A stretch of DNA of 64,000 nt from Acidocella aquatica (GTDB lineage Bacteria > Pseudomonadota > Alphaproteobacteria > Acetobacterales > Acetobacteraceae). The notes beneath the pieces are model-generated. The model saw only the letters and a program-made list of their open reading frames with translations, had not been told where the DNA came from and made no database searches. A program made the translations under genes and the position numbers. The stretch lies in NCBI RefSeq assembly GCF_030160635.1, contig NZ_BSOS01000067.1:248001-312000 (forward strand), read 5' to 3'. Within the stretch, counting starts at the first letter, position 1. Each line of letters begins with the position of its first letter. Below are positions 39,289-45,720 of this stretch, in pieces.

Positions 39289-39711
39289 ATGTTGATACAG
39301 GTTACCCCGAAACTCGGGATCAGCGAGGCTGATCTCGAGGAGAGCTTTATTGCCGCCTCCGGCCCTGGGGGGCAGAATGTCAATAAAGTCGCCACCGCGG
39401 TGCAGCTGAGGTTTAATTTATTAAAATGTGAAACGCTGCCGGGCGCCGTGAAGTCGCGCATGAGGGTGCTGGCTGGGCGGCGGCTGAGCAATGATGGGGT
39501 GATTGTGATCACCGCCAACCGGTTTCGCACGCAGTTACAGAACCGGGCGGATGCGCGCGAGCGCCTGTTTGAGATTATCCGCGAGGCCGCGGTGGCGCCG
39601 GTGTTCCGTAAGCCGACGCGGCCGACCAAGGCATCCAAGACGCGCCGGCTGGAGGCGAAAAGCCAGCGCTCGGATACGAAAAAGCTGCGGCGGCGTGGCG
39701 ATGATTTTTAA
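39289..39711 (+). CDS. arfB: Peptidyl-tRNA hydrolase ArfB (stalled-ribosome rescue)
   Basis: 140 residues. The GGQ motif (27-29, in ASGPGGQNVNK) is that of class I release-factor-like proteins, and the C-terminal basic tail (TKASKTRRLEAKSQRS) is the ArfB/YaeJ extension that enters the empty mRNA channel. Rescues ribosomes stalled on non-stop mRNA. Confidence 0.93.
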   Translation: MLIQVTPKLGISEADLEESFIAASGPGGQNVNKVATAVQLRFNLLKCETLPGAVKSRMRVLAGRRLSNDGVIVITANRFRTQLQNRADARERLFEIIREAAVAPVFRKPTRPTKASKTRRLEAKSQRSDTKKLRRRGDDF

Positions 39712-39823: not shown

Positions 39824-41257
39824 TTAGAACCGTATCGGCACCTCAAACAAAATTTTGGCAACCGGGGCATTGGGGCCAGCGCCTATGCCGACGCCGATGT
39901 TGAAATTGGTGCGGGCGTTGATGGCGTAGCCCAGCCCAAAGTTGAAGGTCCCAAAATCATACGCGGAACCGGGGATGGAGCGGTTGCTCACCGAGGAGCC
40001 GAACACATGCTCCTGCTGGTAACTTAAGGTCATCGAGGCCTTGTCATTCAGCGCGAAGCCCATGCCGAATGTTGCCGCGACTGCGCTGCCGGGTTGCAGA
40101 TTTTCGCGCACGGATACGCCGGAGCTGCCGAGAATATTAAAAGTCCGGCTGAAATTATAGATGTATTGCAGATTCCCGAATAACACGCCGGGAGCGGTTG
40201 GGTAGAAAATGGTGACGCTGGGTTCAAGCGAATAAAAGCCGGTGCCTGTCGGGAGTTTTTTTTGGATGCCGCCGAGGAAACTTCCGCCGCTATCATACAC
40301 TGTGTAAATTGGAACCGAGTAGGGGCTTACGCCGGTGGCGGTTTTGAAGGTGAGGTTGCCTACGAAAACCGGCCATCCGTCATTGCCGCTGTTGAACTGG
40401 TAGGAGCCGCCAAGCTGAATATCGCCGATATTCACATTGTTCGCGCTGGTGTTGAGCGGCTGCGCATTTGGCCCCACTGCCTGGGCCGTGAAGGTTCCGT
40501 AGCCGGCCACGAGAGGAATTTTCGCGTTGATCTCCAGCCGGTCTGTGAGGCCATACCGCGCTGTGACGGCGGCGGTGAGAAAATTTTGATCGACACGCGC
40601 AATGAAAATATTGCCGAAGGTGATGCCTGGGATAATGGTGAAACCATTCAACGCCAGTTGATTTTGTGCCCAGTAGTCATATTCGAGCGAGGGATCGATA
40701 ACGAATGTGCCTTTTGGCGTTAGTACGCCACCTGTGTTGGCGAGCACGGTGGATGACTGGAGTATGACCTTTGTTTGTTCCTGCTGGTTTTGTTGTTGCT
40801 GCTGCTGCTGCTCCTCGCCCACTGTTCCGCTGGCGGGCGCTGCTTGCGTAGATGAGGCTGGAGCGGTTGTGGCGCTGTTGGCGGTTGAATCAGCCGCAGG
40901 TTGTGCCTGGCTGGTTGGGCTTGTTCCTGTTCCCCGCAGTTTGGCCATTTGGCTGTCGAGCAGGCGCTGTTGCTGATCCAGCTCAAGTGATTGCTGTTCC
41001 AGCTGGATCTCTTCCTGTTGCAGCTTGGCTTCTTGTGCCGCGATGGCGGCTTGTAGCGTGGCTAAACTCTCAGGCCCGCTCTGCGCCGCCTGGGCATTGC
41101 CACCTGCAGCAACCATAAGGATGAATGCGCCACTGGCGGAGAGTTGTAGGACAGATTTGAGATGGCTGAAAAATTTTATCGTCTTAATTGAAGCGGTTTC
41201 GTCTGGATGAAATTTTTTTACATAATCATTTGAAAAATAATAGGATTTGGCAGCCAT
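39824..41257 (-). CDS. Outer-membrane beta-barrel protein with periplasmic coiled coil (FapF-like candidate)
   Basis: 477 residues. The GGGAGG ribosome site supports ATG 41257. An unusually long N-region precedes the signal (cleavage expected near residue 57, AQA). A Gln/Glu/Leu-rich coiled coil follows (62-107), then a Ser/Thr/Ala/Pro linker with a run of seven Gln (150-156). From about 165 the sequence alternates beta strands and short turns and ends in Phe (PIRF), as outer-membrane barrels do. A coiled coil joined to a barrel is the plan of FapF, which exports Fap amyloid subunits in Pseudomonas. It is divergent to the secreted proteins described next, and the pairing supports that role. 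Homology to FapF is inferred from layout, not from a search. Confidence 0.7.
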   Translation of the reverse strand: MAAKSYYFSNDYVKKFHPDETASIKTIKFFSHLKSVLQLSASGAFILMVAAGGNAQAAQSGPESLATLQAAIAAQEAKLQQEEIQLEQQSLELDQQQRLLDSQMAKLRGTGTSPTSQAQPAADSTANSATTAPASSTQAAPASGTVGEEQQQQQQQNQQEQTKVILQSSTVLANTGGVLTPKGTFVIDPSLEYDYWAQNQLALNGFTIIPGITFGNIFIARVDQNFLTAAVTARYGLTDRLEINAKIPLVAGYGTFTAQAVGPNAQPLNTSANNVNIGDIQLGGSYQFNSGNDGWPVFVGNLTFKTATGVSPYSVPIYTVYDSGGSFLGGIQKKLPTGTGFYSLEPSVTIFYPTAPGVLFGNLQYIYNFSRTFNILGSSGVSVRENLQPGSAVAATFGMGFALNDKASMTLSYQQEHVFGSSVSNRSIPGSAYDFGTFNFGLGYAINARTNFNIGVGIGAGPNAPVAKILFEVPIRF

Positions 41258-41487: not shown

Positions 41488-41502
41488 TGGCACGGCGTTT
41501 GC
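41488..41502 (+). promoter_or_regulatory. Sigma-54 (-24/-12) promoter
   Basis: TGGCAC-GGCGT-TTGC, a full match to the core consensus with 10 nt between GG and GC. About 88 nt upstream of the first secreted-protein ATG. The sigma-54 activator gene four genes downstream makes it functionally plausible. Confidence 0.75.
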
Positions 41503-41589: not shown

Positions 41590-42192
41590 ATGCGTAACAT
41601 TCTTCTCGCGGGTTCGGCTGTATTTCTTCTGTCGGCGGGCATGGCATTTGCTGGTGGCGGCGGTGACGGTGGTGGTTATGGCGGTCATGGCGGCTTGTCC
41701 GTGAATGTGCCCATTGTTAAAAACGCCTTGGTGGGTGGAAATGGCCAGTCGGCAACCACAGGTGGCACGAATGTTAGCGCGAGCCTGACCAACTCCGCCA
41801 ATCCGACCACGACCAATTCGAACAACACGGCCAACTCAAACAACAGCAGTGAATCAGTAGCATTCACCAAAAATCTCAACAATGTTGGCAATGAGACAAT
41901 GGTAAGCACCAACACTGACACGCATATCACCGTTGCCTCGACCAGAAACGAAGGATCGGTCAAGGATATTACGATTGGTGGCGGTGGCGGCGGCGGCTAT
42001 GGCGAAGACCGCAAAGGCGGGTCTGGCGTAACCGTGAGCAGCGGCAGCAACACCATGAACACCGTGAATGGCGGCAACGGCATCAACACCGCCATGCAGA
42101 ACTCCGGTGCGGCATCGTTGCAGCAGAGTTCTGTGGCTCTTGGTTCCGTCGTCAGCGGCAGCAGCGGCGGCACGGGAATCAGCGGCTTCTAA
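41590..42192 (+). CDS. Secreted Asn/Ser/Thr/Gly-rich protein, candidate amyloid subunit
   Basis: 200 residues. Sec signal peptide (1-21, ending FAGGGG), then a Gly-rich segment and a long stretch very rich in Asn, Ser and Thr with few charged residues and no Cys. Near the C-terminus NGINTAMQNSGAASLQQSS resembles curlin-type strand-loop-strand units (N-x-G-x-x-S-x-x-Q) and matches the ends of the two following secreted proteins. Composition, signal and neighbours fit a fibre-forming subunit; no family could be named with certainty. The CGGAGGG ribosome site sits 8 nt upstream, and a sigma-54 promoter and a terminator frame the gene, so it may be the abundantly made component. Confidence 0.65.
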   Translation: MRNILLAGSAVFLLSAGMAFAGGGGDGGGYGGHGGLSVNVPIVKNALVGGNGQSATTGGTNVSASLTNSANPTTTNSNNTANSNNSSESVAFTKNLNNVGNETMVSTNTDTHITVASTRNEGSVKDITIGGGGGGGYGEDRKGGSGVTVSSGSNTMNTVNGGNGINTAMQNSGAASLQQSSVALGSVVSGSSGGTGISGF

Positions 42193-42318: not shown

Positions 42319-42672
42319 ATGAACGTGATGACAGCGGCGATATTTACAGTCGCAGCAAGCTGCGCATTGTTTTCAGCTTCTCAACCTGCTTTCGCATCTG
42401 GTTCCGGCGGTCAGGGAGATGCGGCCATCGGCGGTCTTGCGGGCATGGCGGTTTCGAATGCGCAACTCGAAAAACTACGTGGTGGAAGTTTTGTGGTATC
42501 TTCGACAAATGTCGGAATCGACACCGGGAACAGCGCGAACAATACCACCACGGGTAATATCGCCAATACGCAATCCATCAATAATAATACAGGTATAACA
42601 ACAATATTTGAGAATACTGGAAACAATTCATTGTTTCAGAGTAGCACCACGGTGAACATCTCTCTTAAATAA
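42319..42672 (+). CDS. Small secreted protein with double-glycine motif, candidate minor amyloid subunit
   Basis: 117 residues. Signal peptide at 1-27 (AFA). Then VSNAQLEKLRGG (GG at 55-56), which fits the double-glycine leader consensus L-S-x-x-E-L-x-x-I-x-G-G. The remaining 60 residues are Asn/Thr/Ser-rich and end with IFENTGNNSLFQSSTTVNI, related to the ends of the proteins at 41590 and 43430. The next gene encodes a C39 protease, the enzyme type that cuts after GG. TAGGAG ribosome site upstream of ATG 42319, preceded by TAGTATTAT, a possible -10 element for its own promoter. Confidence 0.65.
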   Translation: MNVMTAAIFTVAASCALFSASQPAFASGSGGQGDAAIGGLAGMAVSNAQLEKLRGGSFVVSSTNVGIDTGNSANNTTTGNIANTQSINNNTGITTIFENTGNNSLFQSSTTVNISLK

Positions 42673-42685
42673 AGGACTGCCAGGC

Positions 42686-43402
42686 ATGAGCGTTTTACGC
42701 AGGGCCGGTGTATTTGCAATTTTTGCTGTTTGTTGGGGATGGCTCGGAATATCCGGCGCGCGGGCTGGACAGGTTTTTTTGAACGGGCTCGCGGTAGGTG
42801 GCGGTGATATAGATGTCAACGTGTTGAGCTTTCAGGAGCGGAAATTTAGTACAACGGTTAGACAGGAATATGATTTCTCCTGCGGCTCGGCCGCTCTGGC
42901 GACATTGCTTACTTTTACCTACCACCGGCCTTCGACTGAATCTGGTGTGTTTACGAGCATGTTTGTTAATGGGGACCAGCCGGTTATTGAGAAGCAAGGT
43001 TTTTCGCTGCTGGATATGAAAAATTATCTAAGCAGAATCGGTCTGCCGTCTGGCGGATTCAAGGCATCGTTGGCGAAGCTCGCGGAGATAAGGATGCCTG
43101 CCATTGTTCTGATTAATGAACATGGCTTCCGGCACTTCGTCGTTATCCGCGGTATCCAGGATGGACAGGTTTTATTGGCGGACCCGGCCATTGGTCTGAG
43201 GACCGAATCGGCACATGATTTTCAACAGCAATGGTCTGGAATTTTTTTAATCATTTTAGCGAATGTTCAAGCTGCGCAGGCTAGCTTCAACGGTGAGAGG
43301 GATTGGTCTGGAGAGCCTGGCGCGCCGCTTGATCTTAGCCGCTTTGCGGTCAATCTTTCAACGCTTCAGCAGGTTATGCTTCCAAATCCATATAAATTCT
43401 GA
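42686..43402 (+). CDS. Periplasmic C39-family cysteine protease (FapD-like)
   Basis: 238 residues. N-terminal signal or anchor (1-27). The C39 catalytic residues are Cys66 in EYDFSCGSAALATLL, His150 in GFRHFVVIRG and Asp166 in LADPAIGL. There is no ABC transporter attached, unlike bacteriocin exporters, so the protease acts alone, probably in the periplasm. The same stand-alone C39 protease is FapD in the Pseudomonas Fap operon. Starts 13 nt after the previous gene. Its likely substrates are the double-glycine proteins on either side. Confidence 0.8.
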   Translation: MSVLRRAGVFAIFAVCWGWLGISGARAGQVFLNGLAVGGGDIDVNVLSFQERKFSTTVRQEYDFSCGSAALATLLTFTYHRPSTESGVFTSMFVNGDQPVIEKQGFSLLDMKNYLSRIGLPSGGFKASLAKLAEIRMPAIVLINEHGFRHFVVIRGIQDGQVLLADPAIGLRTESAHDFQQQWSGIFLIILANVQAAQASFNGERDWSGEPGAPLDLSRFAVNLSTLQQVMLPNPYKF

Positions 43403-43429
43403 TGCGTCCAATTAGAGGAGTATCGGTCA

Positions 43430-44074
43430 ATGTCTTTCAACCGTTTTACAAAATGGAGTTCACATACAGTTTTCGTGACGGCGGTTTTGTTCAGCCCGCT
43501 TGCATATGCCGCACCGCCTGTGAGCAGTGCGCCCGATAATAATGAGATCAATTCGCTTCAGCTCGCGGCCTTGCAGCTTCCGTATCAGGCGCTTGGCCAA
43601 ATTCGTGGTGGATTTGATGTGAAGCCGGGGCTCTCCATCAGTTTTGCTTTCCAGCAGGTGGATTATCAGGGGAAAACGGTTATTCAGAGCATTCTGGTGC
43701 CGTTGACCACACTGACCAGCGGCTCTGGCGGGGCAATTGCCAGCGTAACCGGTGGCGGCACGACGACCTTGACGCAGCAGGGGGCGGGTGATCCGACGGT
43801 GATAAATGTTGGCGGCAATACAATTCAGGTGCCGGCCGGCACGTCTTCCATCACCCTTTCATCGAGCATCAATCAGGGGGCCAGCGTTGTTATTTCGTCG
43901 CTGGGTGGAGGTGGTATCAGCAATATCATCTCGAACACCGCGAATAATATGATGTTGAGCCAGGTTACCACCATGAATGTTGAAATTACCGGGATGTCGC
44001 AGTGGTTGGCCCAGCAAGGCTCTGGCCTTGGTGCCGTGGGCGGCGCTTTTGGCAACCTAGGGTTTTCTCGTTGA
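43430..44074 (+). CDS. Secreted protein with double-glycine motif
   Basis: 214 residues. Signal peptide at 1-27 (AYA). LPYQALGQIRGG places GG at 60-61, then FDVKPGLSISFAFQQVDYQGK, a beta-rich start of the mature part. The rest is Gly/Ser/Thr-rich. Near the end ISNTANNMMLSQVTTMNVEI resembles the C-terminal motif of the neighbouring secreted proteins. GAGGAG ribosome site. It is a plausible second substrate of the C39 protease; its precise job (nucleator, chaperone or subunit) is unknown. Confidence 0.62.
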   Translation: MSFNRFTKWSSHTVFVTAVLFSPLAYAAPPVSSAPDNNEINSLQLAALQLPYQALGQIRGGFDVKPGLSISFAFQQVDYQGKTVIQSILVPLTTLTSGSGGAIASVTGGGTTTLTQQGAGDPTVINVGGNTIQVPAGTSSITLSSSINQGASVVISSLGGGGISNIISNTANNMMLSQVTTMNVEITGMSQWLAQQGSGLGAVGGAFGNLGFSR

Positions 44075-44188: not shown

Positions 44189-44545
44189 ATGAAACAGTTT
44201 TCTGCTTTGCAATTTAGGTTGGCGATTTCGGGAAAACGGCTTTGCGGATGTGTGGCTGTTGTGACTGTTTTATCGGCGGCCGCAATTGTGGTGACGCCCG
44301 GCGTTGGCTACGCCAAAGCTGGGACATCTGATTTTATTTTGCCGGCCGCGGTAACGAATCTGACGGCTCTGCCAGACTCAACGATAGCTGTTATAACCGG
44401 AACCGGGCTGAAGGCTCCATCGATAAATGGAGCAGGCGAACCGCGCGCGACAATTACTCTATGGGATGAACTCCGCCCGGCGGTTCAGCAGAATAGCCTC
44501 AGCAATAGCAATTCCACCATAACGGTGAATGGTGTCGTGCAATAA
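44189..44545 (+). CDS. Small secreted or membrane-attached protein of the amyloid-like locus
   Basis: 118 residues from ATG 44189; an earlier in-frame ATG at 44171 has no ribosome site. A signal-like hydrophobic stretch (about 18-43) includes two Cys (CGC), then a short soluble part ending in QQNSLSNSNSTITVNGVVQ, Asn/Ser-rich like the other locus members. No family recognised. Follows the GG protein after 114 nt that include a weak hairpin around 44103-44121. Confidence 0.5.
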   Translation: MKQFSALQFRLAISGKRLCGCVAVVTVLSAAAIVVTPGVGYAKAGTSDFILPAAVTNLTALPDSTIAVITGTGLKAPSINGAGEPRATITLWDELRPAVQQNSLSNSNSTITVNGVVQ

Positions 44546-44610: not shown

Positions 44611-45720
44611 TTAATGTTCGCGGATGTGTAATGTTCCGCCGAATTCCGCGTGACGCTTTGCCATGCGATAAAGTGTGACCCTTGAAACTCCCAGCTCTGC
44701 CGCAGCCTTGGTGACATTATGGTGGTTGCGGGCGAGGGCTTGCTGTAGCGCGTTGCGCTCTTGAAGGGAGCCGGCGCGCAGCCGTTGTGTCGCGAGTTTA
44801 CGCGGCGGCGCTGGCTGACCAGAGGGGTGGGGTTGGAGGCCGAGGTCTTCCTCCGAGATCAGCGGTTCGCAGCCCATGACCACGCCACGCCGGATGGCGG
44901 CGATGAGTTCGCGCACATTTCCCGGCCAGGGATAGGAGCGGATAAGATTTTGGGTGGCTGCTGTGAAGCCGGAAACGTCACGGCCAAATTCCGCGGAAAT
45001 CTTGCGCAGGAAAAAAGTGGCCATCAATTCAATGTCGCTTTCGCGCTCCCGCAGGGCCGGCATGTGCAGGGGAAGGACGTTGAGGCGGTAGAACAGGTCA
45101 TGACGGAAGGTGCCGGCAATCATGGCTTCATCGAGTTGCACATGGCTGGCGGAAATGACCCGGGCATCCACCTGGATGGGTAGATGCCCGCCTATGCGGG
45201 TAATTGTTTGCTCCTGAAGAAATCTGAGCAAATGCCCCTGCAGATCCAAGGGTAGATCGCCAATTTCATCCAGGAATAATGTGCCGCCGTTGGCTTGCTC
45301 GATGAGGCCGATTTTTCTTCCCGCCGCGCCGGTGAACGCGCCTTTCTCGTAGCCAAACAGCTCCGATGCGATAAGGCTCGCGGGAAGGGCGGCGCAATTG
45401 ATCGCGATGAAAGGCCCTTTGGCGCGTGAGGATCGTTGATGAACGGCCTGTGCCGCCAGTTCCTTTCCTGTTCCGGTTTCTCCGGAGATGAGAATTGGCG
45501 CGTCGCATTGAGCGAAACGGCGAATGCGATAGAACACTTCCTTCATGGCGGGACATTCACCAACCATGAACTCCTGGTGATCTGATTTTTCAAATTGTCC
45601 GGCGGTTAGGGAATCATTGGACACCGCGGAGGAACTATTATCAGGAATAGGCTGTAAATGCCTGTTGTCCGAGGAGGAGTTCCAAGCAGCACCGCTGCTA
45701 TTCCGATGATAGGTAACCAT
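44611..45720 (-). CDS. Sigma-54-dependent activator without sensor domain
   Basis: 369 residues. The first 50 are Ser/Asn-rich with no receiver, GAF or PAS domain. The AAA+ domain follows: [10 protein letters not shown] (Walker A), [12 protein letters not shown] (the sigma-54-contacting GAFTGA loop), [12 protein letters not shown] (Walker B), and [10 protein letters not shown] Fis-type helix-turn-helix ([21 protein letters not shown]) ends the protein. Convergent with the secreted-protein genes, and the best target is the -24/-12 promoter at 41488. Activity control is unknown; like PspF it would need a partner or be regulated by its level. Confidence 0.88.

Follow-up and report, generated by a model that had tools for sequence, protein, structure and literature searches.

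A Fap-like amyloid-secretion operon of Acidocella with predicted double-glycine leaders beside a stand-alone, Sec-exported C39 protease

The Fap system, which exports functional amyloid in Pseudomonas, is the closest described counterpart of the genes analyzed here. Its FapD protein is a periplasmic C39 protease whose Cys38 is required for secretion of FapC, and the C38A substitution abolishes secretion (PMC5557850). Sec export followed by periplasmic cutting by a C39 protease is therefore not new; in outline it is already established for amyloid secretion, because FapD is known as such a protease and is needed for secretion. The 2017 study left the substrate of FapD open and stated that the Fap proteins have no canonical C39 sites (PMC5557850). 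Mass spectrometry in that study found FapB and FapC intact and peptides of FapA-D throughout their sequences, whereas the N-terminus of FapE was missing, with no FapE peptides for approximately the first 70 residues (PMC5557850). GG/GA motifs at the junction of coiled coil and barrel in Pseudomonas FapF were noted as well, together with missing linker peptides (PMC5557850). Papers of 2017, 2018 and 2025 give the FapD substrate and cleavage site as unknown or only suspected, and a December 2025 review says that FapD is 'thought to' process FapE and FapF (PMC12822426).

The bacteriocin transporters of the PCAT/AMS type (LahT, PCAT1, ComA) share the C39 fold and catalytic residues with the protease described here, and their substrates, like the leaders described here, have hydrophobic residues at -12, -7 and -4 and end in a double glycine. 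LahT recognises leaders by Leu-12, Leu-7, Val-4 and GG, GA or GS, and its catalytic positions are 21/27 (Gln/Cys) and 101/117 (His/Asp) (PMC6363468). Unlike these transporters, the system described here has no ABC transporter; its protease and putative substrates bear Sec signals, and cutting would therefore be periplasmic and post-export. Its leaders also have a conserved Arg at -3 and Phe or Tyr at +1. In the Acinetobacter-type Fil system (FilB, FilC) a C39 peptidase adjoins a FapF-like barrel, as it does here, but Fil-type loci have no RGG leader proteins and carry DUF6160 proteins beginning MDDSSLSSVTGQAG. Our genes match the Fil families (FilB, E 8.1e-36; FilC, E 1.2e-17) more weakly than they match FapD and FapF. 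Curli (type VIII secretion) resembles Fap in exporting amyloid-type subunits through an outer-membrane channel; to our knowledge it involves no C39 protease or double-glycine leader.

We have analyzed a gene cluster within a 64 kb stretch of Acidocella DNA (the window), the features of which are listed in Table 1. As judged by homology, this cluster is related to the Pseudomonas system and constitutes a Fap-like operon for the secretion of functional amyloid, an identity that the initial annotation had missed. The predicted roles are those of a FapD relative for the protease, a FapE relative for the 43430 product and a FapF-like outer-membrane channel for the product of 39824-41257; the channel protein scored 164.6 bits against the FapF family, under the family cut-off of 700. 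We call the locus Fap-like in the wider sense, on the adjacency of fapD-like and fapF-like genes (profile matches) and on the FapE homologue that adjoins the protease. The FapE homologue matched the Pseudomonas FapE profile in hhalign (probability 85%, E 5.7e-6) with a shared invariant RG in the alignment, and the Pseudomonas reference is itself a clear FapE (351 bits). Since the same protein gave no match to NCBIfam FapE by hmmscan, it is regarded as a remote homologue.

Table 1. Features of the Fap-like operon (positions in the window; predicted functions are from homology or motif)
Feature	Position	Strand	Evidence
Predicted FapF-like outer-membrane channel, N-terminal coiled coil, 477 aa	39824..41257	-	NCBIfam FapF NF058560, E 3e-48
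Leader-like site LLDSQMAKLRGT(G), aa 99-110, end of FapF-like coiled coil	40928..40963	-	LxxxRGxG pattern
Sigma-54 type -24/-12 promoter TGGCACGGCGTTTGC	41488..41502	+	Exact consensus match
Sec-signal Gly/Asn-rich protein without GG leader, candidate fibre subunit	41590..42192	+	Sequence composition
Leader protein: Sec signal, LEKLRGG leader, GN-rich domain, 117 aa	42319..42672	+	Translation, leader motif
Double-glycine leader VSNAQLEKLRGG, aa 45-56 of 42319 protein	42451..42486	+	Hydrophobic -12, -7, -4 and GG
FapD-family stand-alone C39 protease, predicted periplasmic, 238 aa	42686..43402	+	Pfam C39, NCBIfam FapD
Predicted FapE homologue: Sec signal, LGQIRGG leader, beta-rich domain, 214 aa	43430..44074	+	hhalign to Pseudomonas FapE
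Double-glycine leader LPYQALGQIRGG, aa 50-61 of 43430 protein	43577..43612	+	Conserved in FapE-type alignment
Small Sec-signal protein, Acidocella-type, degenerate leader, 118 aa from ATG	44189..44545	+	Translation
Degenerate leader LPDSTIAVITGT(G) in 44189 protein	44369..44404	+	IKGG in several relatives
Sigma-54 dependent activator, AAA+ domain and Fis-type HTH	44611..45720	-	Pfam Sigma54_activat E 3.4e-68, HTH_8 E 9.9e-11

The locus has in common with Pseudomonas Fap a Sec-exported C39 protease, a FapE homologue directly after the protease, a FapF-like channel with a coiled coil, and GN-rich Sec-exported proteins. It differs in that its protease belongs to a sister clade of FapD, its leaders are canonical RGG rather than RGR or RGK, an extra leader protein precedes the protease, the fapF-like gene is divergently oriented, an NtrC-type activator is present, and FapA is not recognisable. 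A sigma-54 promoter and the activator gene frame the operon. The promoter is the sole exact sigma-54 match in the window, where 0.33 would be expected, and all 12 of 12 same-genus loci have a matching site 90-133 bp ahead of their first gene. The activator gene, too, adjoins the operon in most same-genus loci. The 41590 protein has no significant profile match to FapB or FapC; its C-terminal repeat, GIxTxxQNxGxxSLQQ, is common to the 42319 family (hhalign probability 72%, E 3.3e-5), which itself shows no significant match to the Pseudomonas FapE or FapB/C profiles. This GN-rich protein is the best candidate for the main fibre subunit. Elsewhere in the window, a small ORF at 39289-39711 (+) with a GPGGQNVNK motif resembles, by eye, the ribosome-rescue factor ArfB. 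A viral origin was rejected, the viral contigs searched containing no relatives.

The protease has a highly significant match to Pfam Peptidase_C39 (PF03412, E 3.2e-20; 72.7 bits against a cut-off of 22) and to NCBIfam FapD (E 2.8e-42), although its 144.5 bits do not reach the cut-off of 330 bits for the FapD equivalog NF058616. Because of this score and its position in a sister clade, we class the protein as a FapD-family relative and not as FapD proper. The initial annotation described it as a C39 protease with its own signal, a complete Cys-His-Asp triad and no ABC exporter, and the present results bear this out: it is a stand-alone protein without the fused exporter of PCAT/AMS proteins. 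Cys66, His150 and Asp166, as well as Gln60 (oxyanion), do not vary in alignments of 26 and of 63 sequences, and the Gln-Cys and His-Asp spacings (6 and 16) are those of LahT. An AlphaFold2 model of the protease (mean pLDDT 86.5) aligns with peptidase domains of known structure, those of PCAT1, ComA and the LahT-leader complex, with Z scores of 16-17 and an rmsd of ~2 A over ~130 residues. In a maximum-likelihood tree FapD proper (SH-aLRT 84) is separated from a larger sister clade (95) that includes the window protease. FapE-type partners end in RGR or RGK, or were undetected, in the FapD proper clade, and in RGG in the sister clade. Only one other C39-like domain occurs in the genome, on a 760-aa ABC transporter (L191 430-2712), and no catalytic Cys was seen in it by eye; thus no cytosolic double-glycine protease was found in this genome. 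A bacteriocin or microcin cluster was rejected on the grounds that the genome has no C39-ABC exporter bearing a catalytic Cys and that Fap homologues surround the gene.

In both proteins flanking the protease a Sec-like signal is followed by a GG motif, as the initial annotation reported with correct coordinates. Signal peptides were called by eye together with composition or a simple hydrophobicity rule, not by SignalP. That of the 42319 protein ends in QPAFA, followed by SG, and the GG lies ~29 residues past this predicted cleavage point; that of the 43430 protein ends in PLAYA, followed by APP, with GG ~33 residues farther on. The n-region of the 42319 protein has no Lys or Arg in the window species, while several relatives have one there. 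The two leaders, VSNAQLEKLRGG and LPYQALGQIRGG, obey the rules for double-glycine leaders, with hydrophobic residues at -12, -7 and -4 and GG, GA or GS at -2/-1. The logo of the downstream leaders reads [VL]-[SD]-D-x-[EQ]-L-x-x-[MIL]-R-G-G-[FY], its positions coinciding with those by which LahT reads leaders. In this logo R-3 and G-2 were imposed by the search pattern and -7 and -1 were restricted to a few residues, +1 being free; within those limits L occurs at -7 in 55 of 57 sequences, G at -1 in 49 of 57, and F or Y at +1 in 55 of 57. Among 35 FapE-type proteins, whose mean column identity is 16%, R59 and G61 never vary, and conservation of L55 and G60 is 90% or higher. In another alignment, of 22 proteins with Pseudomonas FapE among them, the sole invariant columns are the starting Met, R59, G60 and one Pro. 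In these alignments the leader motif is the most conserved part of the putative substrates and nearly the sole fixed feature of FapE proteins.

A search with the FapD profile of 398 genomes of the phylum and of same-genus genomes, with a scan of GTDB genomes, yielded 136 loci in which the C39 gene was usable; at less than 70% identity these reduce to 79 representatives. A FapF-like gene was present in 57 of 57 first-round C39 loci and went undetected in 6 of 137 loci overall, most of those on short contigs. The LxxxRG motif occurs in a signal-bearing protein directly downstream of the protease in 54 of 66 diverged loci and directly upstream in 28 of 66; shuffling within proteins gave means of 2.2 (maximum 6) and 0.9 (maximum 4), respectively, and distant signal-bearing ORFs contained the motif in 3 of 229 cases. 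These counts are by gene position because the iterated FapE search also collected some shadow ORFs. The regular expression was chosen after part of the data had been inspected, a point that weighs against our interpretation, but the excess is far beyond what such a post hoc choice could produce. Of 23 near-complete same-genus genomes, 11 have the C39 gene, and the same 11 have both leader families. Two lower-quality genomes (G001, G025) gave a FapE-type match only; they were rejected as cases of leader proteins without protease, since their contigs end inside the operon. Profile searches for further copies of the 42319 and 43430 families in the same genome found only those of the operon. In two loci the entire fap-like cassette is tandemly duplicated, the copies being near-identical in one (L085 6988-12370) and diverged in the other (L072 3967-14439).

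Two additional leader-like sites, overlooked in the initial annotation, are weaker cases. The first, in the FapF-like protein, is LLDSQMAKLRGTG at the end of the coiled coil. The pattern LxxxRGxG is present in 15 of 54 FapF N-terminal extensions, compared with a shuffled mean of 1.1 (maximum 5), and is absent from Pseudomonas FapF. The second, in the 44189 protein, is supported within the genus only, with IKGG in relatives. One FapF-like protein (L090) has two successive LxxLRGTG sites in a single linker (SQLDRLRGTG and SLDVLRGTG).

The sequences themselves show the gene content, the catalytic residues, and the leader motifs with their conservation and their co-occurrence with the protease. 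In our view all this is probably best explained by a Fap-like operon in which periplasmic C39 cutting at RGG leaders licenses export. We infer the following course. All envelope proteins of the operon would leave the cytoplasm unfolded, by way of Sec, each shedding an ordinary signal peptide. Once they are in the periplasm, the groove of the FapD-family protease would bind the amphipathic leader helix, with its hydrophobic residues at -12, -7 and -4 and its R-G-G end, and cut after R-G-G, so that a second leader of ~29-33 residues would be removed from the FapE homologue and from its neighbour 42319. The FapF-like channel might also be cut, at LRGT between coiled coil and barrel. Processing would then license export of the GN-rich subunits through this channel, a gating role taken from Pseudomonas. 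The order of events proposed in the initial annotation, Sec export and then periplasmic GG cleavage, thus survives as the best reading, favoured by the FapD homology and by the fact that nothing else in the putative substrates is as well conserved as the leader motif, although in outline it is that of the Fap system. Its suggested purpose, simply releasing aggregation-prone domains, does not fare as well: licensing of secretion via the FapF-like channel is likelier, and the candidate fibre subunit 41590 has no leader.

In Pseudomonas FapE the motif takes the form LRGR or LRGK and follows immediately on the signal peptide, and FapB and FapC have no LxxxRG, a pattern that agrees with the published mass spectrometry. 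Some observations fit cutting at RGG less well. The gap of ~70 residues in FapE exceeds what the predicted cut alone accounts for. In the FapD-proper clade -1 is R or K, which the narrow C39 S1 site may refuse, and the cut in that clade could therefore be elsewhere. Degenerate forms (RARG, SGRQG) are frequent among the upstream leaders, and the FapF site is limited to a minority that does not include Pseudomonas.

The chief alternative, which we consider unlikely, is that LxxxRGG is a recognition or targeting signal that is bound, in the manner of a chaperone, by either the C39 protein or the coiled coil of FapF, which then passes the substrate on to the channel. The C39-like domain of HlyB would be an analogue, non-cleaving domains of this kind being found in type I secretion (PMC6363468); the same motif closes the FapF coiled coil, and the position that follows G-2 is not fixed (G, R, K, A or T). 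A protein that only binds does not, however, fit well with the invariance of the catalytic Cys, His, Asp and Gln, nor with the loss of secretion in FapD C38A and the loss of the FapE N-terminus in vivo (PMC5557850). It is less probable still that FapF, severed between its coiled coil and its barrel, is the essential substrate of FapD, with the FapE-type leaders secondary. The LxxxRG[TA]G form of the motif that closes the coiled coil in the FapF extensions counted above, and the junction motifs and missing linker peptides of Pseudomonas (PMC5557850), would suit this proposal, but the site is lacking in Pseudomonas and most other FapF proteins and the FapE leader is nearly universal. It is very improbable that the motif has nothing to do with the protease and is a conserved structural element of mature FapE, a turn or the start of a strand. 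A conserved beta-region does directly follow RGGF, but the same motif with the same hydrophobic spacing stands ahead of different domains in FapF and the 42319 family, it obeys the C39 leader rules at each position, and the FapE-type AlphaFold2 model (pLDDT 71) is of low confidence and mostly unstructured where the motif lies. That model matched nothing significant in the PDB (best E 4e-3).

A broader, Sec-dependent double-glycine pathway can be put forward, quite tentatively. A single periplasmic C39 protease would recognise one and the same leader helix on exported proteins of two or three kinds and, for some lineages, on the coiled coil of FapF too; coiled coil and leaders would be interchangeable ligands, and proteolysis would be the gate that couples arrival of the subunit to opening or closing of the channel. 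The -1 residue (G versus R/K) and the neighbours of the active-site Cys66 differ together between the two protease clades, Y62 and S68 being replaced by T and A in FapD proper. These residues follow the phylogeny and are only a lead on specificity.

The matching double-glycine signals in neighbouring exported proteins would answer the question of what FapD cuts. The predicted site is L-x-x-x-R-G-(G/R/K) in FapE and, outside Pseudomonas, also in the second flanking protein; this is a prediction at the level of residues and testable by peptide assays. The identification of probable substrates and site at this resolution, across a wide and mostly uncharacterised sister clade, is likely to be new, as judged from a literature search mostly confined to papers outside subscription journals. 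Double-glycine leaders, familiar from cytosolic export of bacteriocins, would gain a place in the periplasm, in the export of amyloid, and Acidocella and other Alphaproteobacteria join the lineages with Fap-like loci.

Substrates of this kind may also exist for the Fil protease. Small Sec-signal proteins stand beside FilB-type C39 genes in Fil-type loci (L101 8197-8640, L102, L104, L105 and L106), and their mature N-terminus begins like KAMDDSSLSSVTGQAGI, resembling a double-glycine leader with GQ. The one tested, from L101, is a DUF6160 protein.
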